Of a DNA stretch of 64,000 nucleotides, positions 406-63,465 are shown piece by piece. A model generated the notes under the pieces. The model made no database searches. It had not been told where the DNA came from and saw nothing but the letters and a program-made list of their open reading frames with translations. Made by a program: the position numbers and the translations under genes. Positions within the stretch are counted from its first letter, which is position 1. Each line of letters opens with the position of its first letter. The stretch is from Owenia fusiformis. Taxonomy: Eukaryota; Annelida; Polychaeta; Sabellida; Oweniidae. Where the stretch lies: NCBI GenBank assembly GCA_903813345.2, contig CAIIXF020000008.1, positions 29,700,005 through 29,764,004 of the forward strand. The letters are read 5' to 3'.

Positions 406-3400
406 CTACAGTACCCTGTACATATGGATATTGGCCAAATCACTATCATCTGAATCTTCACTACCAAATAATATAAAATTCCCAGCAGCTAGATACTCCT
501 CCATTGGACTGGGTTTTAACCATGTTCCTATATCAATTGTGATACCTAGTTTGTACAGTGATTCTTCTAGGGAGGGAGATGTAATCACAATTGTTCCTTT
601 TTTGCGGATGTTCTCATATAAGAGTCCCCATATTCTGAAAAGATAGTCGAGAAAGTAGAGGGAGGGTTTAATATTTTTTCATGAATCCAAGTTATATTAT
701 CATGACTTTAAATTTAAGCTTTACAAATTGACTACATTTTTTCATTACCTTTTTATAAAAGTTCATTTAATTTGAAAATCGAAAAAAAATCTCTTAAGAT
801 TATGAAACATTTATACCAGATTTTTCATAAATGTTCTTAACAGACAAAAGAACCCAATTCTGGTGAATTTGTGGTCTGTAATGAGTTTTAAATCATACCC
901 TGTTTACTCAATTCCTTGCTCATTTCACTTTTATTCTATTTCGTGTTTAAAACATAACTATCATTATATTTCTGTTTAGTTTCTTACTTTGATTGGATAT
1001 CTTTTGAAGCAAAGAACTCAAAGACATTGTTCATAATGACCACATCCGCTGAAAGTAGAAAATAGTATTGCTTTGGGTTATGATAAATATTCAGGTACCA
1101 GGCCCGTAGCCAGGATTTGCCAAGAGGGGGTTCAGTTTTCAAAAATTTCCAGGGGGGGTTCACATTTGACAACTTTGGCCCAAATATGGCTAAAATCACT
1201 TAAGAAGTGCTCAAAATGGTGAAGAACTGCATGATTTTGAACGATTTTTTGGCCGGGGGGGTGGGGGTTGCCTGAACCCTGCAAACCCTCCCTGGCTACG
1301 GGCCTGGGTACAAATTGGAATCTGATGAAGGGGATTTCCAATTAGGAAAACACTAGGACTAGCTTAGAGGGTTTTGCTTCCAGGTAACAACCAGTATTTG
1401 CTAAGACAGTTTTGAATAACAATACAGGTATGTCAAGACAACACTTCTGCTGGTGACATAAAAATCAAAATTTTCTCTTATTATTCAACCAAGTCACGTA
1501 ATCAAGGTATCTTCAGGACAGGAGCTTTGTATGAAGTCTTATGCTAGCGCAAATTGCAGGATGTTATGAATTTATGTTGGGTATTCTCGAGACAGACCCC
1601 TTATAATAACTACATACCTGATTGAATAGCTTCTAATTGAGTACATATATCAGCACAAATCACAGAGACCCTATCACTCATGTTGTATCGTTGAACTACA
1701 TCGGACTGAAGTCCATGGAAGAATTCGTTCATTTCAACACCGATAATCCTGCTAGCTGAGCTATAGTAGTAAGCCTAAAACATGGAAATAGATATGGTTT
1801 ATTAATATTGGGCTTAAATGACCAAACCAAAGAAAATATGTGTAGTATCTTAAAATTAATTTTCAGATTTCTTACATTTGAAGTTTATAAACGTTAACGT
1901 GTACACATGATTACTTATGATTTTTTAAAATGTAAAAACGATCAGGACACATTTATATTGTGCCTGGTACTATAAAAATCTTAAACAACCTAGCTTTACA
2001 AAACTTCGGCCTGTAGTAGGTTGATATGGAAAGTCTGAATTACAAGGGGAATTCAACAGAGTTTCTGACAACAGTCACTTTGTTGAATGCAGAAATGTAA
2101 ACATGATGTGAACTCTCCGGGTGAATCTGAATCCACTACACCCCCAAAATGCAATCTGATTTTCGACGCCGTTTCGGTGCCGGAACGATGTCGAAACGGT
2201 GCCGGAACAGTGCCGAATTTTTTCGAATTATATTGGCTGTGTAGAGAGTACCTACCCCATAGAGGACTGCCCCTAGTCTTGAGCCGATGTCTAACACAGT
2301 TTTCCCCTCCAGTCGAGGCACAAGATGTTGAAAAATAAACTTGACCTGTTGCAAAGACGCAGAGTGAGATAAAAAAGCTGAAATAAAAACAAAAAATCAG
2401 ATAAAAAGATGGCAGCACTGTCTAAATTATTTTTATCACGACTGGAATCTTTTATGTTCAGTATGGACACAAATTGAGTATACAGTGGGTACTGGCTGAT
2501 TCTCATGGTGATTCTAAATTAACTGTACATGTACCCCCAAAAAATCAGGATGAACTGCATGATTTTTTGCGCATTTCTATGCAACTTGAGATTGTTGACT
2601 GACACAACTTTATTTTATTCCTTGCTGATTGGCCTAATTTCCATTCCATGTGGCATTTCAAAATATGACCATAGTGTTTTATACAATTTAGAGTGTAATG
2701 TTGACCTCATGCCTGTTTATTTTATTCCTTGCTGATTCCACTTTTTTAACCCTATATCAAAATTGGCCACTAAAACATTATATTGCCATGTTTTTCACTT
2801 ACTCAGAGGCTTGACTTCATGTGAGCCACATTTTGTACAAAAATTGCGACTAATTTTTCCTTCATCCACCAAAGTATCAAGTGTGTCTTCGTCATATAGA
2901 AATGCATCAACATGAAGTGATGTAGCAGCATCACAGTCTTCAATCTGAAAACATACAATTTTACATGTTATTGATTTGGATTTACAAAATGACAGTGGCC
3001 AAACACTAAGTTTTGAAATGCCTGTAACTTTTTCCAATTTTTAAGTTGAACGATGATACTTGGCAAATCTCAATGTAACTTTGGATAAGCTTTAAAATGA
3101 TATATGACACATACTATGGGAGCATTTGTGTATGTCTGCCTAGGGGGGGCTCCATACTTTCGGGACACCCTGTATATGCTTATTTTTTGTTAAATGCACA
3201 ACGCATCACGAACCTGATGGTCAACATGACCAAAATACTATAAACAATGACTAGAATATTATAATATGACCTACATTTAAGGAACATGATTCCCATATTT
3301 CATGAACAAGACTGATATCTCCTGAGCCCAATCCATATATCATGAACATGCTGGTCAACCCATCATGAACATGACCCTCATTACATAATTATAAACATGG

Positions 3401-3852
3401 CCCACATATCAGTAACATTATCCATATATCATTAGCATGACCTAAATCATATGGCTCAAATGGTATGAACATGACCTTGTATCATGCAAGAACCACATAT
3501 TATGAATAGGACCCACATATTATGAACATGATCCACATATCATGATCATGGCCCACATATTATAAATATGACCCACATATCATAAACATGACCCACATAT
3601 CATGAACATGACCAACATATTATGAATATGACCCACATATCATGAACGTGACCAAACTATTATGAATATGACCCACATATCATAAATATGACCCATATAC
3701 CTGAGCTCCGGGTGGGACAAGAGTTTCTCCAGGGGCAAGTGCATCAAGTGGGACAAGTTTCCTGATGTCAGTCTGGATACTCGCCATCATCCTATCTTCA
3801 TTTGAGGAACACATCTCAGACAGATTGCTATCTGAAATGTCAGTGAGCAAAT
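406..3852 (-). CDS. SAM-dependent methyltransferase-like protein, multi-exon gene
   Basis: I reconstructed exons on the minus strand at 3852-3701, 2944-2803, 2377-2256, 1774-1618, 1048-988 and 634-406; all junctions are GT-AG and phases agree through to a TAG at 408-406. The protein has a Cys-rich stretch (FCTKCGSHEVKPL), then a class I methyltransferase motif I (LDIGSRLGAVLYG), an acidic SAM-contact strand (IIGVEMN), ADICTQ and DVVIMNNVFEFF, ending HMYRVL. This is a Rossmann-fold methyltransferase layout; the substrate is unknown and I cannot name the family. The 5' end is unsettled: acceptors at 3871 (phase 0), 3852 (phase 1) and 3831 (phase 1) are all open, with an internal ATG at 3825-3823. 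The phase-1 acceptors fit a candidate first exon at 13188-13083. Intron 4 carries a 208-bp MITE, and intron 1 begins with a 20-bp tandem array. Confidence 0.8.
1099..1306. mobile_element. MITE, CAGGCCCGTAGCC family, copy 1
   Basis: Terminal inverted repeats CAGGCCCGTAGCCAGG and CCTGGCTACGGGCCTG are flanked by the 5-bp duplication GGTAC. It is G-rich next to both ends and has no coding capacity. It lies in an intron of the methyltransferase-like gene. Related copies are at 19067, 41917, 48063 and 51366. Confidence 0.9.
3020..3174. repeat. Solo transposon end (GGGACACCCTGTA type)
   Basis: The stretch ends in GGGACACCCTG followed by TA, the terminal sequence of the ~1-kb TA-flanked elements elsewhere in the window. 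Its interior (around ATATGACACATACTATG) resembles the 53.65-53.77 kb terminal segment. No opposite end was found, so it is probably a fragment. Confidence 0.5.
3200..3700. repeat. 20-bp tandem array abutting a splice donor
   Basis: Imperfect 20-bp units of the form ATATCATGAACATGACCCAC, about eleven clear copies between 3480 and 3700 and more degenerate ones back to about 3200. Read on the minus strand the array starts with the first intron base after the donor at 3700, so the donor lies inside the first unit. Confidence 0.85.
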
Positions 3853-4070
3853 CTGCATGAAACTCAACAGACTGATGGTGATATATTATTACAGTTTGAC
3901 ATGGTAAATTTTGCTAAAATTTATTGATTCTAAAAAGCAAAAAATTACAAACATATTACAGAGATACTATCCAAGTCTGTGTAAAAATCTCAGAAGTCCA
4001 GTTACAATATCATTCAGTATAAAGTTATGACCTCTTGTAATTTTGACATTTTCAATACACTTGCTTATTA

Positions 4071-4168
4071 AGCCTTGCCCGAGTCGGTATTTTTTTACTT
4101 ATCTGATTTTGAATTCTTACCATAATAGAAATCAAGTTAAGTAAAAGAAACCGACTTGGGGCAAGGCT
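4071..4168. repeat. Short foldback repeat
   Basis: GCCTTGCCCGAGTCGGT near the left end is mirrored by ACCGACTTGGGGCAAGGC on the right, about 60 bp apart, so the segment could fold as a hairpin. Probably a small MITE. An open frame starting ATG-ATG at 4302 on the minus strand runs into it and is not supported as an exon. Confidence 0.6.
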
Positions 4169-4540
4169 AAACGCTTGCATTCGTCGAACTTCTTAAAAGC
4201 TTTGTTGACATGAAGAGAAATCTCTGAACTAGCCAGATGGCAACCACATCTTGTAGTTGGCAAAGGACACTGTTCTATTACCATTTTCTCTGGTGTCATC
4301 ATTAACCCTTTAAAATATGTTTTTCTGCTTACTGATAAATTGAGAAAATGTTAGCATGATGGGTTCGCATTGATTTTATGACCCAATTGTGGGGGTTAGG
4401 TGTAAGGACGGGGCTGCTTAACTTTAAAATTGTCTAATTCATTCGAAGATTAGTTTAGAGCTAAATGTTGCATTCAAGGACAACATTTAAATTAATATGC
4501 ATGTGCTTCACATACATGTTAGAGCTGAGGCTGCACATTT

Positions 4541-4880: not shown

Positions 4881-5034
4881 TGCAACCAACAATTTTATTC
4901 TGCAACCAACAATTTTATTCTGCAACCAACAATGCGTAACAAATAAATACGAAACTAACAATGCAACCAACAATGCGTAACAAATAAATACGAAACTAAA
5001 CTGAGCGAAAATACGAAACTACAAACGCCATATT

Positions 5035-6448
5035 ATGGCGACAACGAGAGTGAAACCTGCAGTCGACTATGCCAAGCTAAATTCCGTCGGAAAAGAACAA
5101 AGCTCTGACGAACAACCAACAGAGAAAGGAGCACACAGTGATCAGACGATTCAACCGAATCTTCCGCCCCCTCTTGCTGAAAATCTAGACGAACAAATCG
5201 CTAGAAAAAGACTAGAAGTCGAGAAGAAAAAACGACAAATTCTTCAAAATTTAGAAGCAGAATCTATCAAAATAGACAATATCGTGCAAAGTTCGTACAA
5301 AACAAATGATTCCAACGACGAAACTGAAGAGGAGCCTGAAAGCATTGACCTCAGAAAAGCCAGAAGACAGGAAATCGCTCCTGGACTTCAGAACAAAAAT
5401 CGTACAAAGGAGCCAGCCGAGCCCAGAACAACTCCCAACAAAAACAATGTCAGTGAACAATTAAATATACACACACTACGAGGAATGCAAAGACTTCAAG
5501 ACGAGGTTAATCAGAAGTTAGCCCAAATCGCACCCGGATTCCAGAATCGACCAATCACCACAAAAACCAACAAAACCAACAAAACCAAACAGAAGAAAGA
5601 GAAGAAGATCCCCAAAGACAAAGACATTAAGCACAAAACCAAAAAAGGTAAAAAAATTCACATAGGTCTAGTAAGAATTATTTTTCCTCAAGTGAATCCT
5701 CGACATCTTTAAGTTCAACCTCAGATTCAAGCTCCGAGTCTTTGTCAAGTGAATCAGATTATGATACTGAGTCTGAATCAAATTCCTCTGAATCAAAATA
5801 TTCAAAAAAATCAAGAAAGACCAAACATAGATCAAGCAAAAAAAATCAGGAATAAATCAAACCCATTCAAAGTCTTGTAAAAATCCTCAAAAATATCCTC
5901 ATATAGGCCTCAAATATGAATTTGCAAGAATGAATGTCAAATACAAAGACCTAGACATAAATCTGTTCGTGGCAGGAGTTTTGAATCTGGTGGTCAATGA
6001 GATAGAATATCATAAAATCTCAAGGTCAGGTGTTGTCATCAAATTAAAGCATTTAATGGAGTTGATGTATTTGAACAAAAGAGGTTTTTCATGGGTCCAA
6101 GTTAGAAATTTCCATGCTAACATTCTAAGTGAGATAAAAAGTGAGTCAGGGGAATTTTCTTGGGGTGACGATACGACTCACATTTTGAACCACCTCTCTG
6201 TACAGAACCAAGTTAATAAAAAGCCTCAAAACATCCAAGTTCATACAGGTCAAAACATTAGCTGGTACTGCATAGATTTCAACAAAGACAACTGCGCAGA
6301 AAATTCTGCGCATATGTCAAAACAGCAGATCAAAGGACAAGTTAGATTATTAGAACACATTTGTTCGGTTTGTTATAACAAAGACAGGTCCAAGTCAAAT
6401 CATTCAAAAACTAAATGCCCGCAAGGCATTTCTCATCCGAGTAAGTAA
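5035..6448 (+). pseudogene. Ngaro gag-like ORF, frameshifted
   Basis: The ORF starts MATTRVKPAVDYAKL at 5035 and is Lys/Gln-rich. It shifts frame in A-rich runs near 5640-5660 and again near 5840, with a Ser/Glu-rich low-complexity stretch between. The third block (5930-6448) carries a gag-like domain (DLDINLFVAGVLNLV) and a C-terminal Cys/His cluster (WYCIDFNKDNC, then HICSVCYNK and a later H and C), a zinc-knuckle-like arrangement seen in DIRS-order gag proteins. Probably once a single protein. Confidence 0.75.
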
Positions 6449-6714
6449 TTTAGAAAAAGAACCTACTTCAACTTTGGACTTATCTCTGTTAGATCAAACA
6501 GAAACTTATGTTGTAGATAAGGATAAGAATTACAATTTTGACACAACACAACACTTAGGGTACACAAACCCAACAAACACAATTTTAGCATGCACACAAA
6601 CAGAAAGTACATGCAACAACCACAAACACAACAACACACAGAGTCTACATACAATTTTGACAATTTTGACCAACACATTTACAATCACCACATGAACAAT
6701 GGCCCCCTACGTTA

Positions 6715-8385
6715 GTTCAAAATCACGGCCTATACATTGAATTACACAACAACATCACACAAACAGGGGCTTACAATTTTGAAAAGGCACGTATACCTCT
6801 ACCAACACCTCTGATAATAGAAAATTGGAAAAAACTCTTGTCAGACTATTCAGATAAAGAAATAGTCAAATTTTTGGAATTTGGTTGGCCCATAGGTTTC
6901 GAGGGAATTATAACACCCAATAACAAACCTACTAGCCACGGCAATGCTCACAATTTTCCTAAACACATTGACCAGTTCATTATTAAGGAGGTGCAAAAGA
7001 GAGGTACTATAGGCCCTTTCAACAATAACCCTTTTTCACACAACATACTTTTATCCCCACTCAATACAGCGGATAAAAAGAATTCAGAATTACGACGCAC
7101 TATTGTAGATCTCAGTTTCCCACCAGGAAACAGCATAAACGATGGTATTCCTGAAGGTCAATTCCTTGGAGAAGAAATCAATCTTACTTACCCTTCAATT
7201 GATGATTATTCACAAATCATAATCAAATTAGGTAAAGGTTGCGCTTTATTCAAGGTCGACCTGTCTAGAGCATATAGACAATTGCATCTAGATCCTTTTG
7301 ATTACGACAAGATCACCTTTTGTTAGAGACAAAAAATCTTTTTTGACGTAGTTCTGCCTTTCGGTCTCAGGACTGCGGCATACATTTGCCAAAGAGTTAC
7401 TAATGCTATCACATACATTCACCAACAACAAGGTTACCATGTAATCAATTACTTGGATGACTTCGGAGGTTGCGAACCTTTTGATAACGTGAATTCAGCA
7501 GTCAGTCACTTAAAACAAACACTCACTTCACTTGGCTTATCAGAATCCTCAGAGAAATATCTTGCTCCAAGTAACAAAATGGAGTTCCTGGGCATTCTGG
7601 TAAACACCAACAATATGACACTCTCAGTCACACAAGACAGACTATTAGAAATTACACAACTAATAGAACATTGGTTAACTTTAAACAGTGCGACCAAAAA
7701 ACAATTAGAAAGTCTTTTAGGTAAACTCCTCTTTGTCTCAAAATGCGTTAGAGGGAGCAGGGTGTTCATTAATAGACTCCTGGTTAAGTTCAGAAGCTTG
7801 AAAAAACAACATCATAAGTTCAAAATCTGTTCACAATTCAAGAAAGGCTTAGTGTGGTGGAAACATTTCATGGGCACCTACAATGGAGTCACAGTCATTC
7901 CTGATAGTGAATGGACGCCTTTAGATTCCATTGTGGCCACTGATGCATGTAACACAGGTTTAGGTGGATATTCACATAACAAATTTTATCACACTACCAT
8001 CCCACTTTTCTTACAATCTCACAGCATTAACGCTTTGGAATTACTAGCTATATTATTAGCATTAAAACTCTGGGGTCACCACTTTCAAAGGAAACGCGTT
8101 TTGGTCAATTGTGACAACCAAACTTCAGTATTGGTGATCAACACCGGTAAATCCAGAGATAAGTTTTTACTGTTGCTCTTAAGAGAAATTTCTTTCGTAG
8201 CAGCTACGCACAACTTTCAAATCAAAGCAACACACATACCCAGTCATACCAATGTGTTAGCAGATAGTCTCAGCAGGTGGCATACAGACTTAGAATTCCA
8301 AAACAAAGCTAAACAATTGCTCCCAGTGAATTCAGTCGAGTACAAAATCAAATCCTTTCATTTCAATTTTAATGAATGTTGGTAA
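6715..8385 (+). pseudogene. Ngaro reverse transcriptase/RNase H, nonsense mutation
   Basis: Frame 1 reads RT motifs KVDLSRAYRQLHL, DVVLPFGLRTAAY and the catalytic NYLDDFGG, then an RNase H domain with acidic residues in VATDACNTGLGGY, INALELLA, LVNCDNQTS and VLADSLSRW. The frame is broken once by TAG at 7324-7326, probably from a Trp codon. The start is uncertain; the frame is open well upstream of 6838. Its stop overlaps the recombinase ATG by 10 bp. Confidence 0.88.
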
Positions 8386-9369
8386 TTTTTCCAGATCAAA
8401 TCAAGGAGCTCAAAAAGCAAGCTAATCGCAACATGATGTCTGCATATAACAGCAAAACCTGGCAGAATTTATACACACAATGGAGGACTTTTCTTTTATT
8501 TTGTGTTTATTACAACATGGCATTTTTACCGGTTCAAACAGACACCGTTCTTATTTACATGCAATTCTTGAGTAGGACTTTCAAATCAGTGTCTTCAATT
8601 TTAAATTATGTAAACGGCATAAAAGTTCTACATTTATTACATGAATTGCCCTTTCCTTTACTTCATAGGGAATTCCAATACAAACTCCTTTATAAAGGTT
8701 TACAAAGAAATAATCTACACACCGTCAAAAGAGCTTTACCTATTACCCCGGAAATTTTAACTCAAATTTTTGGCTCTTTAGATCTAACCTCAGATTTAGA
8801 GTCCACATTTTGGTTTCTAATCCTCACACTTACGTTCTTATTCGCAAGAGCAGGAAACATTATCCCTTATACAACTTCTACTTTTGAGAACAACAAACAT
8901 CTGTTACAACAAGATATTTTCAAACAAGACTCAGATGGTTTGATTTTCCTCATAAAACACTCTAAAACAAACCAAGCAGCACAACGCATTTTAACACTTC
9001 CCGTGTTAGCCAAAGAAAGTTCTCCCTTAAATATTGTGTCCGCATTCAATCATAAAAATTCTTTCCATAAATATAAGAAAACTTCTCCAGCCTTTCTTTA
9101 CTCAAAGAATGGTAAATTGATTACATTTACAAGGCAAAAAATTCGTTAAAATTTTGAGAAACAAATTACAAAATTTAGGATATAATCCTTCATTTTATAG
9201 TGGACATAGTTGCAGAAGAGGGGGAGCTTCCTGGGCATTCAACGCTAACGTTACTGGTGAAGCCATTAAGGCACATGGAGATTGGGCTTCGCAGTGTTAT
9301 CTTAGATACATAGAATTGAATATCGCTTCCAAACTAGCAGTCAGTCAGAGAATGTTAGCACAAATTTAA
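8376..9369 (+). pseudogene. Ngaro tyrosine recombinase, frameshifted
   Basis: Begins ATG at 8376. The catalytic signature of the DIRS-order recombinase is visible: Arg in LFARAGNIIP, the H-x-x-R box in GHSCRRGGASWA, then GDWASQCYLRYI with the likely nucleophilic Tyr. The frame breaks around 9135-9150 at an A-run, so the H-x-x-R and Tyr parts sit in a different frame from the first Arg. One inserted base would explain it. Function expected: integration of the circular cDNA. Confidence 0.87.
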
Positions 9370-9429
9370 TCAAATTCACTACTTTACGCATGGTAAATGT
9401 TCATAAGTTTATTCTTGGCGCCTCGGCTT

Positions 9430-10157: not shown

Positions 10158-10205
10158 CCCACCCTAAACCCACCCTCTACATTTTATCAAGATTTCACAA
10201 TTAGG

Positions 10206-18222: not shown

Positions 18223-18227
18223 ATAAA

Positions 18228-26689: not shown

Positions 26690-28335
26690 ATTTAGCTTTG
26701 TCGGAATATCTTATTAGACCGTTTACTTGTTCTCATTAGACTCTTGACTTATTGTTGTTAGACACTTTATTTGTTCTTTTTATTGTCTTAATTTTTCCAA
26801 TTCGACTATTTACTTCTGCATATTAGACTCTTTTCCTATTCTTAATAGACGTTTACATGATTTTTGTTAGAGTATACATTCTATTTACGTGTTCGTATTA
26901 GACTTGTTCTGAATTGACTATACATGTGAACTTGATTTTGTTAGCGTCTATGTACATCTTCTTATTAGGCTTTTTACTTGTTCGTATTAGACTATTAGAC
27001 TCTTTACTTGTTCGTATTCGACTCTTTGCATGTTCGTATTAGAATATTTATTAGTTCGTATTAGACTCTTTGCATGGTCGTTCATAGACTCTTTACTTGT
27101 TCGTATTCGACCCTCTGCATTTTGTATTAGACTATTTGCTTGTTCGTATTCGACCCTTTACTTGTTCGTATTAGGCTCTTTGCATGTTCGTATTAGACTA
27201 TTTACTTGTTCGTATTCGACCCTTTGCATGTTCGTATTAGATTATTTACTTGTTCGTATTAGACTCTTTGTATGTTCGTATTAGACTATTTACTTGTTCG
27301 TACTAAACTCTTTGCATGTTCGTATTAGACTTTTTACTTCTTCGTATTCGACCCTCTGCATTTTGTATTAGACTATTTGCTTGTTCGTATTCGACCCTTT
27401 ACTTGTTCGTATTAGGCTCTTTGCATGTTCGTATTAGACTATTTACTTGTTCGTACTAAACTCTTTGCATGTTCGTATTAGACTTTTTACTTCTTCGTAT
27501 TCGACCCTTTACTTGTTCGTATTAGGCTCTTTGCATGTTCGTATTAGACAATTTACTTGTTCGTACTAAACTCTTTGCATGTTCGTCTTAGACTTTTTAC
27601 TTCTTCGTATTAGGCTCTTTGCATGTTCGTTTTAGTATCTTTACTTATTCGTATTAGACTCTGCATGCTCGTATAAGACTATTTACTTGTTCGTATTCAA
27701 CTCTTTGCATGTTCTTATTAGACTATTTACTTGTTCGTATTCGACCCTTTGCATGTTCGTATTAGATTATTTACTTGTTCGTATTAGACTCTTTGTATGT
27801 TCGTATTAGACAATTTACTTGTTCGTACTAAGCTCTTTGCATGTTCGTATTAGACTTTTTACTTCTTCGTATTACACTCTTTGCATGTTCGTTTTAGTAT
27901 CTTTACTTATTCGTATTAGACTCTTTACTTGTTCGTATTCAACTCTTTGCATGTTCTTATTAGACTATTTACTTGTTCGTATTCGACTCTTTGCATGATC
28001 GTATCAGACTATTAAGTTGTTCGTATTAGATTATTTGCATGTTCCTTTTAGACTCTTTACTTGTTCGTATTCAGCTATTTGCATGTAGGTATTAGACTAT
28101 TTACTTGTTCGTATTCGACTCTTTGTGTTATCTTATTAGACTATTTACTAGCTCGTATTAGATTCTTTGCATCTTCGTATTGAACTATTTACTTTTTCGT
28201 ATTAATCTCTTTGCATGTTCGCATTAGACTCTTTAATTGTTCGTATTCGACTCTTTACTTGTTCGTACTATTCTAGTATCTTTGCATGTTCGTATTAGAC
28301 TATTTACTTGTTCGCATAAGACTCTTCGCATGTTT
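26690..28335. repeat. Long 22-bp tandem array in 5' UTR intron
   Basis: About 70 imperfect units, largely alternating between GTTCGTATTAGACTCTTTGC and GTTCGTATTAGACTATTTAC types, i.e. a 44-bp higher-order period. The array fills most of the first intron of the B-box/NHL gene without touching a splice site. Confidence 0.9.
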
Positions 28336-28720: not shown

Positions 28721-28836
28721 ATGATAATGTTTGACTCAACAATGAAGACACTGCATTGATAAATGAATGACACTACTTGTATGTACTTTTATGTTACAGA
28801 ACTACAGTTGTTCCTTTCACACCACTCCAAACTACG

Positions 28837-34200: not shown

Positions 34201-34811
34201 CACATAAACCATCAATGCATGCATTTATATCACCAAATATGATAATATCGCTATCCGCCATTAAGGAGGACACACATGTATCCAGCTCATCAAGCACCTA
34301 AACATAATTAACCTTTTTACAATTCTGTTAGTGGTAGATAAACACAAAATAATATAACACGTGTGTTATTATTACATTGCATGCTAACCGCACATATTCT
34401 ATCCTTGTATTTAATCTTAAGATTAACTTTAGATACCACTGCCTGCAAAGATCTATTAACCATAATGGCAATACCGCCATGACCAATCATGTGACCTTTA
34501 TTTAATGGACATAAGTCCGGACTAGATTCAAAGCATTCACAGTAAAAATCCTGGTTAACGTTTTCCAAAATATGTTTTGAATGTTGATGTAACCAATGCT
34601 CCTGTAAGAGGATAATATCATTACTCTGCATTAACTTAGAAAGATATGGGATTGAAGTTCCAAGCCCATTAGCATTCCATGAGCATATATTTATGCCTGA
34701 TTCAAATTCAGATCCACTTATTTTGTTAAAAAAATGTGAAGTACCGTTTGGTTTTTGAAAAGATACCAGTGCGCAGACTATAAACAGGATCTTTATTGTA
34801 TGTGCGGGCAT
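31253..34811 (-). pseudogene. LINE ORF2: AP endonuclease and reverse transcriptase
   Basis: Minus strand. The N-terminal block (34811-34317) carries APE-type endonuclease motifs (NICSWNANGLG, LLQEHWL, HGGIAIMV). A stop/frameshift region at 34297-34317 separates it from a 1014-codon frame with the rest of the endonuclease (IIIFGDINACIDG, SYIDHCVIS), reverse transcriptase including the catalytic FYADDTILIS, and a C-terminal Cys/His finger (CPLCGECETLIHFIKDC). The layout is that of non-LTR retrotransposons of the CR1/Jockey/I group; I cannot assign a clade. The break makes this copy inactive, although most of the RT is open, so the insertion is fairly young. Confidence 0.9.
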
Positions 34812-34843
34812 ATTGAATATTAAGTGTTATAACAATACAATCC

Positions 34844-36998: not shown

Positions 36999-37079
36999 GT
37001 GACTTCCCACTTCCAAACTTATGGAGGGGAGTGTACAAGAATCATGGTATTTTAGCTATTAGTATTTGCTAGTATTTGT

Positions 37080-39182: not shown

Positions 39183-42100
39183 ATGATAAAAATGAATTTT
39201 GAAAAGTTCGTATTGTTCTTTACGATTTCGACATTGAATGCAGTTGTTGGCTACAAGTATTTCCAAGATAAGGTACCAAATGGAGACAACATTCCCCACC
39301 CCTGTAAGCCTAATTACATATGGCAGGGATTAGGACACAAAAATGCGATGGGTGGTGGAGACCGAAACCCATTTGGATTGGCATTTGAAGCAAACGGAAA
39401 GGTACTTAAATTATTCAATTACTCAAACCAAAATCAAAAGTTTGGACTATCCATAAATCCAAGCTAGGAGGGCAAAATTCCGTGCTAGAAAAAGTACTTT
39501 ACTTTTGCAGTAAGTGCAGTACCTTTACTTCAAAAAGCAATTGGCGGTGTTATATTGCAAGTAATACTAAAAGTGTAAATATCCAGTATGGGGCAAAAAA
39601 CGACATTTATTTGATAACTTTTTCATGATTCATACATTTTAAAATATTTTTAAGGGAGTTATAGAACCCTCTTTTGTTTTGTTAGAATTCATAAAATGGG
39701 ATAGATTAATCCTCATGGGTTCCGGAAAAAGATAGGTCTACAGAAATTAGGCCTCTAAACGAAAATTTACACTTCAGGATCTTAAATCTTCAGGAACTTA
39801 AACACAGGGTGTGTACCAAATTAAGCGTGACAGCTGAACACGCGGGTTAAGGTAATAATCACTTCTAGAGATGATAAAATAATTTCGACTTTGGGACAGG
39901 TATGCAAACAACCCACCCACATGTTTTTTCTGAAATTATTTCCTAATTTTCGACCCCTTCCACCCCTGCTTTTTTAATTTTTCTTGCATCAATATGTTGT
40001 GTTTTGACACATAGTTGACCACTTTAAAGGAATAAGAGATTCCTCCATGGGTTTTAAAGATACCCATTATGGGTGACCAAACTTAGCTGAAAGCAATGGG
40101 AAAATAACATGGGAAATATTGTTTTCCACTTTATCTAAAAGGAATCATTTATTCCTTTTAAGGGATTAACTGTGTGTCAAGACGCAACATATTGATGCAA
40201 GAAAAATTTAAAAAGCAGGGATGGGAGGGGTTGAAAATCAGGAAAACATTTCAGAAAAAACATGTGGGTGGGTTGTTTGCATCTACCCTGTCTCAAAGTC
40301 GAAATTATTTCATCATCTCTAGAAGTGATTATTCTGGAGGTAATGCATTGACCTAACATACCCACCTGTTTAAATCCTCAGGAAATGGCCAAAATCAAAC
40401 ATATGCCTGTCCAAAATCTGTTGCGCTAATTTCCCTCCTCCTTTCTATAATAACACCCTAGACAGTGAATTCCATAGTTAAACCTGAAATGAAAACATCA
40501 GTTTTTGCTCTTTCATCACCCTCGTGTTGTACCTTACCCCGCGAGTTAACTGTCACGCTTTATTTGGTACAGCTCCTGTGTCAAAGCAACACTTTTACCA
40601 CTACATATAGCTATTTACCATACCTCAAATAAACTACCTCGTCTGACATCTTATAGTATGTAAGAGAACACATGTGGTAGGGTGGTTCGTCAACATCAAC
40701 TCTGAATATACAGTATATACAAGGGGCGATCCATATATTCTGATAAAATCCCCTCCCCTCCATAGTTAAGTCAACCGGAAGTCCCCATTTGGAGCACATA
40801 TCGAAGCCTGTTTGCGTTTGGTAATTTAAAATGAATCATCACATTCAACATAAATTCGAACGACATGATTGCAATGAATGAACAAAACAAAGATCTAAAC
40901 ATCGACATGCTTCGATATGGTATCTAATGAAAATCTCCGGTTGCCAAACTTATGGAGAGGGGTGTATATTGAGTCAAACTTATGGAGGGGAGTGTACATT
41001 GAGTCAAACTTATTGAGGGGAGTGTACATTGAGTCAAACTTATGGAGGGGAGTATACATTGAGCCAAACTTATGGAGGGGAGTGTACATTGAGTCAAACT
41101 TATGGAGGGGAGTGTACATTGATTCAAACTTACGGAGGGGAGTGTATATTGAGTCAAACTTATGGAGGGAAGTGTACATTGAGCCAAACTTATGGAGGGG
41201 AGTGTACATTGGGTCAAACTTATGGAGGGGAGTGTACATTGATTCAAACTTACGGAGGGGAGTGTATATTGAGTCAAACTTATGGAGGGGAGTGTACATT
41301 GAGCCAAACTTATGGAGGGGAGTGTACATTGAGTCAAACTTATGGAGGGGAGTGTACATTGAGTCAAACTTATGAAGGGGAGTGTACATTGAGTCAAACT
41401 TATGAAGGGGAGTGTACATTGAGTCAAACTTATGGAGGGGAGTGTACATTGAGTCAAACTTATGGAGGGGCGTGTAAATTGAGTCAAACGTATGGAGGGG
41501 AGTGTACATTGAGTCAAACTTATGGAGGGGAGTGTACATTGAGTCAAACTTATGGAGGGGAGTGTATATTGAGTCAAACTTATGGAGGGGAGTGTACATT
41601 GAGTCAAACTTATGGAGGGGAGTGTACATTGAGTCAAACTTATGGAGGGGAGTGTACATTGATTCAAACTTATGGAGGGGAGTGTACATTAAGTCAAACT
41701 TATGGAGGGGAGTGTATATTGAGTCAAACTTATGGAGTTGAGTGTATATTTAGGTGTGGAATGCAGCATTGTGTAACGCCGATTCAGACAATGATGGAAA
41801 AACAAATGGTGCTGAGCTTGGAGATCCCGATTGTACGTGGACTGAAGGTTCCATACCCAAAATTACAACTGGGCTTTCACATCCAGGTATAAGCAATATA
41901 TTATTGAAAGAGATTACAGGCCCGTAGCCAGGCGGGGGGGGGGGGGTTCGATGGGTTAGAACCCCCCCCCGCCTTGTCAAAAAATCTTTCAAAATCATGC
42001 AGTTTTACACCATTCTGTGCACTTTTTAGGTGATTTTGGCCATTTTTAGACCTAAATTGTCACAAGTGAACCCCTTAGGAAAAAAGTGACCCCCTCCCTT

Positions 42101-45100
42101 GGCAAATTCTGGCTACGGACCTGGATTTAAAGTTGTCAGAGTTTGGATTGTTAAAAAATCCCTTATCATTGTGTATCATATTATCAACATACGTGCATTT
42201 AACTTAGAGATATATAGAATAAGTGACTTAGTCAACATATTTGATGACATAGATGTTGTTGTTTGATATCGAAGTTAGGAGAGAAATGGAAAATGTATTT
42301 CACAAGTCTTCCCTTGAAATACAATTTTTACCCCTTCCATGACTTATTAACTATTCTATACCTTATAGCATAGGAGTGAAGTTCCCTTGAGATTAACCCC
42401 GTATCCAACACCCCTAAATATATCACTTATCTATATATCTACTTGTCTAGGAGTTTGTGAACCCTGGGATTCTGCAGAGTGCTTGAATCAAAATCAATGG
42501 GAATTTTGTGATAGCGATGTCTTCTCCTGCCCAGCTATGGATGCTACAGGTATGTCGGATGATTAACCCCTTCACGACGATAGCCTTCACATGGAGTCCC
42601 ATTACGTAATACCTTTCGTGACTATACAGGGCGTCCACAAAAAAGTATACCCAACTTCAAAACCAAATTACTAGAATCCTGAGCAATCTTTTTAAAATCC
42701 AAAGGCAACAGCAAAAAGCCTTATTTGTCCTCCATCAAATGGTACCTACATCATTATGTAACAGTCACGTATGACTGAGCAATCATGACCATTCTGATAG
42801 GTGGTAAATTTAGCACTGTGCCAAGTTATCTTCCTATGCTGCAATCAATGTGTAATTGGCTTAGTATTCTTTTTCTGTTACATTATGTTAGATGGCAGGA
42901 CTTTCATAATGAACTGGACTGAGGGCTGTAGCTCTCTTTATGAAAAAAAGATTTGGCAAAAAGCTTACTTACTCTAAAATAGGCCTGCAAACATGGTTCA
43001 ACTGACACCTGAGCAGAAGAGCCGACAAAAAGCGAGTGCAGTGAACTGTTTAAGAATCCCTATTCTTACTATTGAAAATGGATTCTAGCAATACTGTCCA
43101 ACATGAATCTACTTGTTGAGACTCAATCAACTTGAGTTCTTCTGAGAAAATGAGGATTTCAGCAAGGGTGTATTGACTTCAATGGGGGATCCTATTGACT
43201 TCAAGGCTGCATATCATCAAGTAGAAGTTTCATTGCTGTTCAATAGCCTCTTGGGATCAAATTTCCGCGAGGGAGGTAGCAATAAAACGTCATGGAAAAT
43301 TATGCAAAAAGGTTGAAGAACATGGAACAAGTTTGAATTTGAACATTAAAAATGTTTTGAACACAAAAAACATTCATTGTGTCAATCCTACTTGAATGCT
43401 AACTTGGCACAGTGCTGATTTTACCACCTTTCATAAAAGTCATGATTGCTCAGTCATCCATGACAGTTACATAATGATCTAGGTACCATTTGATGGAGAA
43501 TTAACTAGGCCATATACTGCAGCCTTTAAAAATTAAAAAAATTGCTCAGAATTCTGGTATCCTGGCTTTGAAGTTGGGTATACTTTTTTGTGGACGCCCT
43601 GTATATCAATAAAATGACAATGTCTCCAGTTCTAGTAGTTCTATCCTGTATTTTTACACCAAATTTTGACAAGTTTTATAAAAAATAATGTCATGTGACA
43701 ATCCTCATTAAAAATTGATTTTCAGTGATAAAATACAATGTATAGGTTTTCTACTACAAGCAGCTTTTATTTATCCGCCAACATTTTCCTCTTATATTTG
43801 AATCGACAAAGGGTTAATCCACATTAGCTATTGTGGGTTTGGTCCCAACTGAGCTGTATTGAGTTTTTAAAAGTCCTTAATAATTATTCAATCTTGACGG
43901 ATAAAACTACATGTAGTTGGATTGTACAATAATGGAGGAAAAACAAAAGACAATACAATAAAACAGAAAATAAACGCTTCAAAGAAATATAAACTTTTTA
44001 AAGTAAACAACTCCACTTTAATCCTTTGGGATGTGATACTTTGAATGTAGAAGTACAATTGTGATTTCAAGATGATGTTCGAAATGTCAGTGTTCGCTTC
44101 CCGTCAACACAAGTACCTGCCACAGAGACGAATTATTATTGTATGACGGTGGAGCTGCCGGTGGATGGAGACTATCATCTCATTGCGACAACTCCTACGA
44201 TCGATAATGCTTACGTCATGCATCATATGCTGTTGTTTGGATGTAAAGAAGGTACAAAACATTTAATCCTGTGTTCATCCTTCTCACAACATAATTTTTT
44301 TCACAATACAGTTGACTCTCATCATTTATTTCAATTATTGTCACGTGTGCGTAGGGTTTTAGATAATCTAACGGATGGTATCACGTGCGCGTCAGCTCTA
44401 AATTTGCCACTATGGGATTATATATACTATATCTTGTATTATGCATGTTTGATTTTAGATGATCTAACGGGCGATGATTCTGATGTTCGCACTAAATTTG
44501 CCACTCCGAGATTATGTGGGATGGACACGGGTTGTAAAAATATTATCACTACCTGGACACTTGGGTCTGCGGGAGAGTGCTACTCCGATCTTGCTGCTTT
44601 TAGAATTGGAAAACACGGATACAAATATGCAGTTCTACAGGTGAAAAAACTTGCCTCAGTAACATTTGTTCTACGGCTAGGATACGGCGGCTCTAGGCTC
44701 TGTTTTCTCAAATCTAGACTAATTGTCAAAAACCTACTGCATGGCCGCCGCAGGGAAGCCCTAAGGTGACCGTGTGCAATCACTTTTTAAATGTGCCACA
44801 GCAACTGTTCAGACTTTCCGTGCCCGCGAATTCAAAATACGTAACCTTGTATTCGCGAATGCAACTAACGCCTGTCGGCTACCGAACCAACTACTATTTT
44901 ATGACCAACTCATTTAAATTTCATGGTTACCCATAAAATAGTAGGTTAATCCGGTAGACGACAGGCGCTATTTGCATTCGCGAATGCAAGCTACTTAAGC
45001 AAAAAATAATCTTATTTATATTGTGTGATATTTTGATACGAATAAAATCATTTTAACATACAGTATATTCATATTTTGGCCATATTCATAGTATAGTTTA

Positions 45101-48100
45101 GGAATAAAATATTAACCATTTCATTTATCATATCCATGAAAATGATTAAGAATTCTCATCATGTGAAAACATCATTTGAAGCTTTCATTTCCGCCCCTGC
45201 AGCCCATTCAGCCAAATACGATACATCGTACGCGTTCTATTATATATTTGTATTCCAGATGCATTGGAACAACCCAGAACTGCGCTCTGATTACACAGAT
45301 AGCTCTGGCTTGACGTTGTTCTACACTCCAAACTTGAGGCCTAATGACGCAGGGTATTTTATTGTCGGCCAGAGACACCTTGAGATCGAGGGCGGACAAG
45401 AGAGTCATATGGAAACTGCTTTGATTTCACCGAGCTGTACACGACAAAACTTGCCCTACTCTATTAACATACTAACTACTGCTCTACATATGCACTATCT
45501 AGGTAGGTTAAAGCGTAATGCATGACGTTCAGCAAAATGAACACGATCTGGGTTGGTTAAAGCGTAACGCATGACGTTCAGCAAAATGAACATGATCTAG
45601 GTTGGTTAAAGCGTAGCGCATAACGTTCATCAAAATGAACACGATCTAGGTTGGTTAAAGCGTAGCGCATAACGTTCAGCAAAATGAACACGATCTAGGT
45701 TCGTTAAAGCGTAATGTATAACGTTCAGCAAATGAACACGATCGAGGTTGGTTAAAGCGTAACGCATATCGTTTATCAAAATGAACACAGGTTGCGCAAC
45801 GCATATCGTTTATCAAAATGAACACGAGATTGATTAAAGAGTTATGTATTGGTTTTCTGTTTCATGTTCTTTTATTCTACCAAGATTCATTCAATTTTAC
45901 CCGATGCCAATAAATACAGTAATTTAGTAATCGTATGATCAGTAGAATGAAGTCTTCTGATTGGTCAGTTCTTGTGATATTGATCATCTCTGTCGCAATA
46001 CAGAAAATATTGGTACAGAGGGGACATTCTCAGTAGCAATACAGAGGATCACACGATAAAAACGGTATAGAATGATTTGAAGTGCAACACAGGATATATG
46101 ATGCTCTCGATATTCTGTATTGACAATCGACTTCGTCTCGTTCCAATACGGAATTCTCGAGCAGAATATATCCTGTATTGCACTTCAAATCATTCAAATA
46201 CCCGATCAGCCTCAGAGTTGTGTTTAGAACGGGTTTACAATTTTGCGTCGGTGCCAACGGGAATCATTCCATCATGTCTATTGAATTTTATGCTGGCAAT
46301 TTTGATTTCGATGCACAGTACCATAGTGATTTCTGAAGAAAATGATTTTGTCATACATGTTTTTTGCTCCAAATATCTTACGAAACGAGCTTGTTTAAAA
46401 TATGTATCATAGAAAAGCTATATAACTGTCAATGGCAAATTACACGATGATGTGTAGCCTATAAGTAACGGCCTTAGTAAACACTGTAACTGAACGATTA
46501 TTTATGTGAGAAAACTACATGCATTTGTATAGGGGTCTTTTTCAAAAGTTCGTCACTCAAAAGTTCAAATATTACATGCTCGATATCTCAACATTTTGAG
46601 AAGTATAGCCAAAAACGATTATTTTATTCAACTCAGTAAAGGTCAAAAAGATACTGAGGATAATATCAGGTGAAAATGTTAAAATTTGTTGAAGTTATTC
46701 ACTTTTTTGGGCTTCGTGTCCAGCTGTTTTTGCAGTTTTTTAAGCAATTTTGGGGGGTACATCAGAGATACATCCCCTGGATCTTTCTTTCTGGAAATGA
46801 GGCGGAAAAATGTGTTGCCACAAGTCTACAGAGGTTATCTATGTGAATCATTTCGTTTTCAGATAATAAATCTACCATACTCGAAAAATAAGACAATGTC
46901 AATTTAGAACTAACGTGCGTGATGCATGGTGTCAAACACCATCACGCACGTTATTCATGAGCTCCAGGCTGATTATTTTTACAAAAAGTCAGATGAGTGT
47001 TTTTTCGAAAGGAGGATACACCGAGCTCTCATTGTGTTCAATGCTATATGAAGTATATATGGAAAATAATTTTTATGCTCAGTTGCGTGCATTATCGTTT
47101 TTCGTGTCAAACTCGTCACGCACGTTAGAAAGCCTATTTTCATACAAAATACGCGATCACATGTGCAAATGAAATTGTATTTTATTTACACATTTACGCG
47201 ATGTTATAGATCCAGTGGTAAGTTTCAACTCTGAAGCGGCAATATGGTCTTTATAAGTTGCTCGAAGATTGGTGTCAAACTTCGTTACGCACGTTAATCC
47301 GCCACGCACGTAGTCCTTTATCGTGTCATACTCTCGCATTAACGAATTACTTAAATTTTTCGTTGATATAAAACGATTTTCACACACACCTAAATGTAAG
47401 AAAGGGAACATTCATCTGGAATCAGCAAATATTGTGGTTGTTTTCGTCATTAATCTGTTTTTTGACACCATAGCTTAATTTATGTGATAAAAGTGTTCGT
47501 GTCAAGCAATCACGCACGTTATAAAAGATGTACATCTTGTCCTTATGTTGATGGTTATGTCAATAGTCTTGTCAGGAGTGCCAAGCACTGATTTTTATTG
47601 CTTTGTCTAATCTCAGTTTCACAGTTCAGAAAATTTCGTCAATTATTGTATGCAGAAAATAGAATAGAACCAATAAAATTCTAACGTGCGTGACGTTTGA
47701 CACCAATGGACAAGTGATTGAGCGTCGATTCAGATGGACTCAATTCTTCTCGACTTCACTGAAAACAAATTCTTTATGCATGGTTATTTGAATTATATAA
47801 ATGATCTTTGATCGACTATTTAGACTATTTATTCCATAAATGATATTGCATTGATAGAAATTGCTACAGTTTCGTTCCACATAGACCATTCGCAATTTAG
47901 ATTCGTCCCGGCTAAGGCCATTTTGGCTAGCAGAAGACGTTAAGTATTTCGTATAATTCGACGTATTTTCCCCATAACTTGTATTGCTTTCAACATATAT
48001 TCAGTTCCAGTTACAAGATATGTTGGTCTCATGAAGTCCATTAGCATTTTACTATTGTTATTCATACCCGTAGCCCCCCCCGCAACCCCCCCCCCCCCAA

Positions 48101-55208: not shown

Positions 55209-55254
55209 ACATGAATGATGATTTCAAATTTACACTTATTTTTACATGACATGA

Positions 55255-56358: not shown

Positions 56359-59300
56359 TTAACTGTCCTTCTTCCACTTTTCTGTTTCTTCTTTCCTAGC
56401 ATCAGGCAAGAGTTGGTTCCTCATCCCCCCTGAAAAATGTTCTAGACATTTAGTCATGATTTCAAATGGAAATTCATGTACAGTAAAATCTGTAAAGTGG
56501 AACATCTATGTTTGTGGAACACCTCCATATGTAGAACACTTCTTTTCAGTCTTGTTATCCATTGGATTATTGTATAAAATGCCTCTCTTTAATTTGAACA
56601 CTTCCCAAATGCAAGACTATATTGAAGTACCGAAGGTATTGGGACACACTTTAACTGAACTAAAACTGTTTTTTTTCCAATTATTCTAACAATCATATTT
56701 CATTGAATAAATATATTTTCTTAATTCTCCTTCTCGTGTAAAATAGTGTCAAACATTTACACAACAATTTACTTAAAAACATGAGTTTTAGCATTCATAA
56801 ACACATAAGACATTAAAGTGTTCATAGGGCTTTAAAAAACATTCATGAAATCCATTGTTTTAATATCCAATCCTACCTAGAACATTAGATGTCGCCTCTG
56901 TAGCCAATATAATTGGTTGGACCACTGTGCCAGGGAGTTGACGAAGTACCCCTCCTACTGCCCCAGTCACCCCTTTCTGCTCATTCTCTTCCTTAGCAAC
57001 TTGCATCATGGTTTGTGCTGTTTCACTTATACCCTAAAATCAGGATATTCATTAGTCATTACATAATGTACACTTCACTTATACCCTAAAATCAGGATAT
57101 TCATTAGTCATTACATAATGTACACTTCACTCATACCCTAAAATCAGGATACATTATCATTACATGATGTACACTTCAAATTAATAATCTGTTTCTAACA
57201 TTTGTTAGATGATTTGTTATACATTTGTTCTAACATATGCTTTATATATCAAAAAGGATATCAAGCTGTTAGAATATTGTATTAAATGTTTGAATATTCC
57301 TGCTGAATAAAAAAAATAAATAACAATAAACAGTGAAACCTATATATCTGAAATATGTGAAGACCTCTCTAATCCGAACACCTCTCAATGTGAACTCTTT
57401 TTCCTGGCCACATATTTGATATATTCCATTGACATACATATTTATAAAACTTGAAATATGAACCTGTTAATCTGAACACTTTTGACGGGTCCCAGAGGTA
57501 TTCAGATTAGACAGGTTATAATGAATATCTTGCTGATATCTTTAATATTTCAAAAAGGACTGTGGATTGAATTAAATGAGCAAATTTTTTTGCTAACATG
57601 TGATTGGTTCTATTTACATTCATTATGATAAATATTACATTCAAATTTGTGCAAAATCACAGATTAATGTGGATCAAAACAGTTTGGGGTTATTAAATGT
57701 AATCATAATTACTCCATTAAACAGATAAGAATCAATAATTGAAAATATACAGAGCATGGTAGTCAACATATTGTATTGTTCTTAAATGACACAGCGTTTG
57801 GTACCTCTCTAACAAGGTGATATGCATTAGTGACGCCCTCTCTCAGGTCAGCAGGTTGCAGGACACGGTGTTTACGTCGATAGATCCGCTTCCGTCGTGT
57901 CACACTAGGACCCGGTGAAACCATATCAAAGGCAAATTCAGCACAGTACTGAAACAAAACAAAAATACTTTGAATACTTTATTTCTATGGTTTTCATTTT
58001 ACTTCTTTGATGTATTTATGACTAAATTAAATAAAAACATCAAAAAGGTATGGCTTGATATCAAAATATCATATCAGACAGATAATCTCATTGATTGTTA
58101 ACTGCATACCATTTTACTACTTTCTATCTTGCTGACTTTATTTTCCAACTGTTCTCTGGATTTTTAAATGATCCAATATTACAGAAAGAAAAATACAGCA
58201 AAACTGGCAAGTGGAACACCACTGTAGGTGGAACATTTCTGTAAGTGAAATACATTGCATATTGCAAATGGAACTGTTTTTATTTTAAATGGCACCATTA
58301 CCTGGATTAACATGATGGAAATGACAACAAATGAACCATTACCTGGATTAACATGGTGAAAATGACAACAAATGAACCATTATCTGGATTAACATGGTGG
58401 AAATGACAACAAATGAACCATTACCTGGATTAACATGGTGAAAATGACAACAAATGAACCATTACCTGGATTAACATGGTGGAAATGACAACAAATGAAC
58501 CATTACCTGGATTAACATGGTGGAAATGACAACAAATGAACCATTACCTGGATTAACATGGTGGAAATGACAAAAATGAACCATTACCTGGATTAACATG
58601 GTGGAAATGACAATAAATGAACCATTACCTGGATTGACTGCACCAGTCTGTTGGTGAGCTCAAGGGCTGCCATAGCAGTAGATGTGGTGAATGAATGCGC
58701 ACCACGTTGTAAGCCACGTACTATCCTCCCATCTTTTTTATATTGCTCCACAGGTAACCAAAACAGATCTTTAAGCCCTTGGACTATAACAGAAATATAA
58801 CAATGGTGACTAATATTTTGTACAGCTCATTTTAACATTTGTCCTTTTTACTTTATATATTTCTTTCGAAAACATAGAGTTCCTAAAATCCCTAGAGTTA
58901 CATTTTATAATTCCTAGTCATAATAGCAAGTTTCATTAGAGAACTACATTCCAAATAATTTATTTAATTGATAAAAGACATTTATCATGAAAATTGCATG
59001 CATTCATGATACATTCAACAGACAACGTTTGAGATTTGATTTCTCAAAAATTTGAATTGAAGAATTATAAAGATGAAGCTCCGGCTGAAACTACATGAAT
59101 TCCAAAGCATGTAGAAGAAATCTCAAAGCTCAAAAATTAGGAAAAGTAAAAACCAAATGTATTGAATATAAGAAGAAATTCTACCTAATTGTACTAAAGA
59201 ATGCATTGGTCCTACTCCACCAAGTATACTTGGTAACTGGTTCTTTTTAATATCACTCAGCCATTCATTCAGACAATACGCCAGGAGCTTGTCATACCCA

Positions 59301-62300: not shown

Positions 62301-63325
62301 GGAACCCCAAACCAACTTAAGTATGAGATACACCAGTTATGTACGATCGGTTTTGGATATAGGGTATATCCCTCGGGAAATATTTATATCTCCCCTTTGT
62401 CCCTTCGGTCCCTCGGGATGATATAAATAAATTCCTCAGGATATAACCTATATCCAAAACCTCCCAGTACATAACCCTTATATACATCCCTTCAATCGCC
62501 CAATGGCATTATAGAAGGGTACAGTAAGATTATACAAATACAATATGAATAAGGTCAAGGGGGTTAATACTGCACTTGAGGTTGACCATGGTATTTCCCA
62601 AAAATGTGTAATAAAGTACCTGTATTTATCATATTGTCTGCAGTTCCTCTTGTATAAAACATATTGTTCCAACTTTACCTCTATTAAATATCCATATACC
62701 ATATTATTCCCTGGACTTCCTCAAAGTTCTTACTTTATTTAGATGTAGCTCCATTAGGGTGTCTATATCCCTACCAGGTCCCCCTCTGGCTTGCCACCCT
62801 AACTTGTCCCCACTGCCCTTATAAGGGTTATGGCCTATTGTAATTGGGTCAGACCTAAAAAATGTTTTCAGATATAGAAATAAATCAGTTCACATTGTGA
62901 AAATACTCAATGAATCCAAACAGGTTTGAAACATTTTCATACAATGAATACAGAAAATTGAGATACTTGAAAACATTGGCATGATATATTGAAAGCCATG
63001 TTGTTCCTCATTGAGTAGCTGGGCATTGCGCTTCATAAATTGTTTTGTGGACTCGAATCAGATGTTTTAACCAACCAGGGAACAGTATTACCTTTGGTTT
63101 GAGTAGCGACTTGCATAATAGTTGGGCATTTTGGCTTAATCGAATCTATCTCAATTGATTTATGGTTTGAAGTATGATGTTTCAATCAAATATCTTTCTT
63201 ACCTTTGATTTGAGTAGCGTATCGGGGAATTGTGCTTCACTTTTTTCCTGTGTAATGAATCTTTATCACCGAAATCACTTCCACCATACATGCACCACAC
63301 AAGTGACATCTCTTTAAGAGTATAT
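56359..63325 (-). CDS. ATG2: Autophagy-related protein 2, C-terminal part
   Basis: Minus-strand exons: 63325-63203, 61681-61514, 61270-61169, 60752-60433, 60098-59946, 59306-59185, 58783-58629, 57948-57805, 57033-56877 and 56429-56359 (TAA at 56361-56359). From 61681 down all phases agree. Diagnostic blocks: MYGGSDFG, INKFLYQYASE, LLPLRLNVDQ, PIRLDYTGKRIDFGHGT, LAQLNCSELRLKRL, LGGVGPMHSLVQLVQGLKDL, DGRIVRGLQRGA, DLREGVTNAYHLVRE, TEATSNVLGGMRNQ. ATG2 is the large lipid-transfer protein joining ER and growing autophagosome. Exon 60752-60433 is a Pro/Ser-rich loop. The 63-kb exon ends in phase 2 while the next begins in phase 0, so a short exon between them is missing or mis-placed. The N-terminal majority lies beyond 64000. 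Confidence 0.92.
56470..56690. repeat. Possible pogo/Tigger-like fragment
   Basis: GTAAAATCTGTAAAGTGGAACA followed by TGTGGAACACCTCC and GTAGAACACTTC resembles the terminal repeats of pogo/Tigger-type transposons. Similar strings appear near 57333-57500 and 58197-58275. Boundaries are uncertain. Confidence 0.35.
57020..57175. repeat. 52-bp array containing a splice acceptor
   Basis: Three copies at 52-bp spacing (57022, 57074, 57126). On the minus strand each carries CCTGATTTTAG|GGTATAAGTGAA, the acceptor and first 12 bases of the ATG2 exon 57033-56877. Only the copy at the exon continues into coding sequence. Confidence 0.93.
58280..58640. repeat. ~41-bp array containing a splice donor
   Basis: About nine copies of CCATTACCTGGATTAACATG plus GTGGAAATGACAACAAATGAA. 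On the minus strand each unit reads AATCCAG|GTAATGG, the last seven bases of the ATG2 exon ending at 58629 plus its donor. Confidence 0.95.
61980..62115. repeat. CCCGGGA/GCGGGC-rich repeat
   Basis: Contains CACCCGGGAATATATAG and CCATCCCGCTCCCGGGAA as inverted ends around GATATATAATATAT segments. Probably a small MITE related to the hairpin at 62337. Lies in an ATG2 intron. Confidence 0.45.
62337..62475. repeat. Hairpin repeat in ATG2 intron
   Basis: TATGTAC, GGTTTTGGATATAGG and TATATCC on the left pair with GGATATA, CCTATATCCAAAACC and GTACATA on the right. About 139 bp, non-coding. Confidence 0.8.
63010..63202. repeat. Tandem copies of an ATG2 exon end and donor
   Basis: On the minus strand the true CGCTACTCAAATCAAAG|GTAAGA at 63203 is followed about 110 bp downstream by CGCTACTCAAACCAAAG|GTAATA (63091) and, more decayed, by CAGCTACTCAATGAGG near 63020. 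The intervening TGATGTTT..AATCAAA strings are also shared. Confidence 0.8.
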
Positions 63326-63465
63326 CTGCAAAACAGAGAACTTTAATTCTGCAAAATAGAGAACCTTTTAGAGTATATATGCAAAACAGAGAATCCTTAA
63401 TCTGCTAAATAGAGAACCTTTTTGAGTATGTCTGCAAAATAGAGAACCTTGCAAAATAGAGAGAT
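63315..63465. repeat. ~30-bp array containing a splice acceptor
   Basis: On the minus strand the true acceptor TCTCTGTTTTGCAG|ATATACTCTTAAAG is preceded by copies such as TCTCTATTTTGCAG|ACATACTCAAAAAG and TCTCTGTTTTGCAT|ATATACTCTAAAAG. It abuts the ATG2 exon 63325-63203. Confidence 0.88.

Follow-up and report, generated by a model that had tools for sequence, protein, structure and literature searches.

Tandem repeats lie on or against exon-intron junctions at several genes of the annelid Owenia fusiformis, and the question raised by this locus is whether such arrays reach splice junctions by chance or whether junctions are in some manner favored. The stretch analyzed here, referred to as the window, comprises 64,000 nucleotides (C8:29700005-29764004) of an assembly of 498 Mb and 525 contigs, in which twelve large contigs of 32–62 Mb each sum to approximately 477 Mb. 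An initial annotation of the window had claimed tandem copies of eight junctions, seeded on the junction with a precision that chance would rarely achieve, and had recognized no named system to which they belong. In our analysis, these arrays are probably best explained as mirage-type minisatellites, that is, duplications that straddled a junction by chance and were subsequently amplified and homogenized, with the coding sequence spared by splicing at the exon-proximal site.

A named system does exist. In the available parts of two reports on amphioxus (PMC3087553, PMC3902484), “mirage” minisatellites are described in Adh3, troponin C, the globins BflGb6 and BflGb9, and PGBD5; repeats with units of approximately 10–160 bp lie across the 5′ or 3′ exon-intron boundary, AG/GT is retained in many, not all, copies, and regular splicing is reported to proceed without interference. 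As far as these parts describe them, the amphioxus repeats resemble those in Owenia in spanning the boundary with exon bases included, in occurring at both intron ends, and in mostly retaining AG/GT. They were studied in single cephalochordate genes with RT-PCR and haplotype data, whereas the present arrays are known from one genome assembly of an annelid alone; the latter also extend to 18 copies and 260-bp units, and their rate has been measured across three families of genes. A literature search that excluded most subscription journals found mirages described in lancelets only and, since the host is an annelid, the known kind extends to a phylum distant from lancelets.

Related cases are recorded elsewhere, again judged from the accessible portions of the articles. 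In a potato RdRp gene, a duplication crosses an intron-exon boundary together with splice signals, as the present arrays do (PMC4974935), although the arrays described here lie within introns of known genes and are not shown to be new introns. Human segmental duplications contain internal tandem repeats at exon-intron boundaries, the gene-modifying repeats averaging 30-bp units and four copies (PMC2812944); these are likewise minisatellites at boundaries, and in the human paralogs the transcript is altered. Earthworm metallothionein genes carry a minisatellite and untranscribed exon duplicates (PMC12783039), although repeats that straddle a splice site are absent from the portion of that description available. 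The name and the anatomy are thus already known; new are the occurrence in an annelid, the rate, and a null model under which short introns account for a large share, though not the whole, of the pattern.

Tandem arrays in the window were identified using TRF and self-blast, and repeat arrays were confirmed at six of the eight junctions claimed, namely the donors 3700(-), 45503(+), and 58628(-) and the acceptors 41754(+), 57033(-), and 63325(-). Four of these arrays straddle the junction, and only these contain exon bases within the repeat. At the donor with first intron base 45503, a 49-bp mirage array of 6.1 copies (45493..45788, forward strand; TRF, copy ladder) repeats 10 exon bases, and its five decoys all carry GT, with differences in the next bases, mostly GTTGGT versus GTAGGT. 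The other three lie on the reverse strand. A 52-bp mirage array of 3.1 copies (57022..57178) crosses an ATG2 acceptor with first exon base 57033, repeating 12 exon bases (TRF, self-blast), and a 41-bp mirage array of 8.4 copies, counted as eight to nine (58294..58635), crosses an ATG2 donor with first intron base 58628, including 10 exon bases by self-blast and 7 by TRF. A 53-bp mirage array of 2.6 copies (63312..63450) with 14 repeated exon bases crosses the acceptor with first exon base 63325 (TRF, self-blast, copy ladder), which is assigned by its position to the ATG2 gene.

The two remaining confirmed arrays abut their junctions. A 20-bp minisatellite on the reverse strand (3465..3699; TRF, self-blast, copy ladder) lies beside the donor whose exon ends at 3701 and whose first intron base is 3700; by self-blast the repeat is free of exon bases, the array ends one base within the intron, and two registrable copies lack GT at the corresponding position. 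A 30-bp minisatellite of approximately 27 copies on the forward strand (40945..41753; TRF, self-blast) extends up to the final base of the intron, directly ahead of the Temptin_C exon that begins at 41754, and likewise lacks exon bases by self-blast. At the final two junctions, 44459 and 63203, self-blast detects one degenerate duplicate each and no array: 44357-44421 matches the acceptor region 44453-44515 with 71% identity over 65 bp (44357..44515, forward strand), and 63038-63108 matches the donor region 63153-63219 with 69% identity over 71 bp (63038..63219, reverse strand).

The genes bearing these junctions are supported to different degrees. Of the seven exon reading frames between 56863 and 63342 in the ATG2 gene, five give collinear matches to the ATG2 model of Pfam, one of the five exceeding the whole-protein cut-off, and the exon at 58628 matches ATG2A in PDB 8kbx. 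The Temptin_C match at 41754 exceeds its cut-off, and its first aligned residue is the second one past that position. Exons at 44065 and 54627, both matching copper monooxygenase in Pfam above cut-off, flank 44459-45503 on both sides. No Pfam match was obtained for the frames 45202-45525, 57766-57978, and 63202-63342 or for the five frames tried in the gene at 409-3913, and the junctions there are accordingly supported by reading frame and splice consensus.

Two of the arrays also differ in their relatives elsewhere in the genome. A query with the 41754 array returned a total of 172 genome matches, those within its own array among them, and among the matches listed, relatives of the unit with 72–89% identity occur on ten other contigs, so that the unit, being one of a dispersed repeat family, does not simply copy its junction. 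The corresponding query with the 58628 array returned no match beyond its own array in a genome search that skips very common words. The 41754 array, belonging to a dispersed family, and the 3700 array, lacking exon bases, are therefore cases separate from the mirages.

Whether junctions carry more arrays than random placement predicts was assessed in genes outside the window, identified by genome searches with the myosin head, dynein AAA_6, and kinesin domains. The first set comprises 55 regions (18 myosin, 17 dynein, and 20 kinesin), and a hold-out of 10 further kinesin regions, with thresholds fixed beforehand, raises the total to 65 regions, 30 of them kinesin. Regions were picked for exon density and not randomly; one dynein cluster, several long-intron myosin loci, and several kinesin clusters were left out. 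Exon models were produced by a purpose-written protein-to-DNA spliced aligner, and model exons shorter than 30 bp were merged into the adjoining intron, which reduced 298 raw introns in the first 55 regions to 284 with a median length of 348 bp. Under the null model, each array is collapsed to one unit and placed uniformly over all introns, junction-straddling positions included. An array was counted as at a junction when it straddled the junction or lay 6 bp or less from it, and arrays with a TRF score of 150 or more are termed strong. The P values assume that arrays are independent.

In the first 55 regions, the excess at junctions grows with array score: 15/63 arrays at a score of at least 50 (10.0 expected, P 0.051), 14/37 at 80 (7.7 expected, P 0.008), 13/22 at 150 (6.0 expected, P 0.0007), and 12/19 at 250 (5.5 expected, P 0.0006). 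The 13 strong arrays also exceed the 8.15 expected when each array is placed within its own intron (P 0.007), and P for strong arrays stays between 0.0002 and 0.0043 when any one locus is left out. Widening the tolerance from 6 to 30 bp leaves the picture unchanged, with 14/22 strong arrays at a junction versus 7.65 expected under the pooled null (P 0.003) and 9.84 under the own-intron null (P 0.02). The planned hold-out of 10 kinesin regions alone shows no excess (1/5 strong arrays versus 1.25 expected), and in three of its regions (L058, L063, and L066) the hold-out rule leaves uncounted strong arrays that lie at, or adjacent to, the exon end outermost in the alignment. The first set and the hold-out together yield 14/27 strong arrays versus 7.3 expected (P 0.003), and 16/72 versus 11.7 expected at a score of at least 50 (P 0.096). 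Arrays with a score of at least 80 occur at 15/624 modelled junctions in the three gene families.

When the flanks are added across the 65 regions, a post hoc extension in which flank exon ends are homology ends and not proven junctions, 20/39 strong arrays are at a junction versus 9.5 expected (P 0.0001), and 22/101 versus 14.9 expected at a score of at least 50 (P 0.029). Divided by family, strong arrays with flanks number 6/14 versus 3.5 expected in myosin (P 0.10), 3/7 versus 1.0 in dynein (P 0.06), 7/10 versus 3.1 in the first kinesin set (P 0.006), the sole set significant alone, and 4/8 versus 1.9 in the hold-out kinesin regions (P 0.10).

Junction straddling is thus enriched approximately twofold over random placement in the genes sampled, and the enrichment is not overwhelming. 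The proximity of arrays to junctions holds against random placement through the post hoc count, whereas the hold-out alone is at expectation. The rarity of chance hits that the initial annotation had assumed is not borne out, since introns are short and random placement alone predicts approximately 24% of strong arrays at junctions (the 9.5 of 39 above). This expectation, together with the hold-out, gives some weight to the alternative according to which junctions have no link with the arrays at all and numerous intronic minisatellites in short introns straddle them by chance. The same alternative accords with the lack of excess among degenerate and two-copy arrays, and with the exonic part of the arrays, which ranges from none, or 4 bp in the clear cases, to approximately 127 bp. 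Such variation indicates that the repeated segment has no fixed register with the splice site, and the arrays are accordingly less precise than had been supposed. Nevertheless, strong arrays exceed the null under pooled and own-intron placement, with any one locus left out, and over the 65 loci together, and chance alone appears a rather doubtful account of the whole pattern.

The excess is concentrated in amplified, homogeneous arrays. Over the 65 regions, 16/25 strong arrays with at least 90% match straddle a junction versus 6.6 expected, compared with 4/14 versus 2.9 for strong arrays below 90%; likewise, 17/48 arrays with at least 2.8 copies straddle versus 8.6 expected, whereas arrays with fewer than 2.8 copies show no excess (5/53 versus 6.25 expected), contrary to the notion that repeats are seeded at junctions. 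Straddling arrays are also more homogeneous than interior arrays (median 96 versus 83, P 0.005). These observations suggest that the influence of the junction, if any, is on amplification or upkeep rather than on the first duplication. Amplification might accordingly act preferentially at junctions, owing for instance to changes in chromatin, transcription, R-loops, or base composition at exon edges, a tentative reading that we do not favor. The numbers are small, the thresholds were explored afterwards, and a younger age or better homogenization of straddling arrays would look alike. Since many of the two-copy rows from TRF may be fortuitous matches and the data were split in hindsight, the excess in amplified arrays is a lead and not a result.

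Outside the window, junction arrays recur at donors and acceptors in other genes on several chromosomes, in support of the initial annotation, and the two junction types are equally affected (6 and 7 of the 13 strong arrays in the first 55 regions). Copy ladders were drawn for 14 locus arrays, 13 of which include exon bases, L033 being the one without. A single myosin intron (L006) holds arrays at both ends, with seven copies of an 83-bp unit at the donor and 12 copies of a 91-bp unit at the acceptor. In a kinesin gene (L055, C6:40703900-40710600), one modelled intron has a donor array of 17 copies, another has an acceptor array of 4 copies, and a further array lies at the first aligned exon, an example indicating that arrays may cluster by gene. 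In another kinesin gene (L037, C2:23266359-23269174), 18 copies occur at 159-bp spacing, each with approximately the first 114 bp of the exon; the coding sequence continues from the last copy, whereas four upstream copies that were read in frame each reach a stop. The spliced aligner misplaced exons here, and aligners and gene finders may do so in such arrays generally. For the L028 array and the second L043 array, the exonic part exceeds one unit, so that a copy other than the outermost may have been modelled as the junction.

As had been proposed, the introns contain ladders of decoy splice sites. Across the 18 laddered arrays (14 locus and 4 window), GT or AG is retained in 99/104 located decoys, a count biased toward intact decoys, since a decoy had to share at least 50% similarity with the true site to be located, and many decoys score equal or close to the true site. 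Such conservation could point to a role of the arrays in alternative or regulated splicing, or in protection from the loss of a splice site. Use of the nearest decoy, by contrast, would produce a frameshift or a stop in 15/18 arrays, the unit length is divisible by 3 in 5/18 with no bias toward multiples of 3, and the 95% of decoys found intact is, by estimate, approximately what overall array identity predicts; a splicing function is therefore very unlikely. The exon-derived part of the decoys is more conserved than the intron-derived part in 10/14 arrays, equally conserved in 1, and less so in 3 (P 0.08), from which nothing is drawn, as outermost partial copies bias the comparison. In some ladders, the outermost copy has diverged (copy 11 of the 91-bp acceptor array of L006, copy 4 of L028, and copy 6 of L021).

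Long homogeneous arrays are difficult to assemble, and repeats expanded in the assembly where exon edges had been collapsed or duplicated could in principle mimic the pattern. Copies carry private differences in many arrays, however. Moreover, the arrays are spread over many contigs, and resequencing data upheld comparable arrays in amphioxus PGBD5, according to the part of the report available (PMC3902484). We consider an assembly artefact extremely improbable.

The mirage-type explanation preferred here would proceed as follows. A local tandem duplication of approximately 30–260 bp would happen to cross an exon-intron boundary, and amplification and homogenization would follow, presumably through slippage or unequal exchange. 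The additional copies lie on the intron side, and the coding sequence would remain intact, probably at little cost, as long as the spliceosome keeps to the exon-proximal site. That site may be favored by exon definition because the decoys would define over-long exons. The excess of amplified arrays, but not of two-copy repeats, at junctions is outside this explanation. It is conceivable, albeit unlikely, that junctions themselves promote amplification of straddling duplications and that, in some lineages, mirages come to occupy a few per cent of junctions, supplying spare splice sites for new introns or exon copies. If the rate measured in the three families (15/624) holds genome-wide, thousands of junctions would, by extrapolation, carry intact decoy ladders. 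Such ladders would constitute a natural experiment on intron gain by tandem duplication and on how the spliceosome settles on a single site where as many as 18 nearly identical ones are present.

Several further observations were made in the window and the genome. A lone copy of the 30-bp unit of the 41754 array lies at window positions 37014-37037, approximately 4 kb upstream of the array. A 22-bp minisatellite of approximately 60 copies (window 26993-28326) lies upstream of an uninterrupted B-box/NHL frame (28771-30423), and the long open frames at window 5005-9149 (+) and 31253-34826 (-) presumably represent two retroelements, which they resemble. On C6, five exact matches to the FMRFGK(R) codon pattern occur within 674 bp, a cluster that we take to be an FMRFamide precursor; the NGFFYGKR codon pattern, which would have pointed to an echinoderm, had no match in the genome, and mitochondrial COX1 had none in the assembly. 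The PF16915 erythrocruorin-linker domain, presumably an annelid family, has three C6 matches just over the cut-off (38, 31, and 28 bits versus 27). The muscle myosin most closely resembles the myosin chains of striated muscle, such as 1dfk/1dfl from scallop. At C9:37986009-37994334 (L002 and L003), a muscle myosin heavy chain gene has 12 listed copies of one exon (Myosin_head ~18-84), a candidate for a large mutually exclusive exon cluster. In a dynein heavy chain gene (L023, C9:7081392-7088707), an exon of approximately 300 bp is present in three diverged, open copies (7082562, 7083728, and 7087077), which is a whole-exon duplication.
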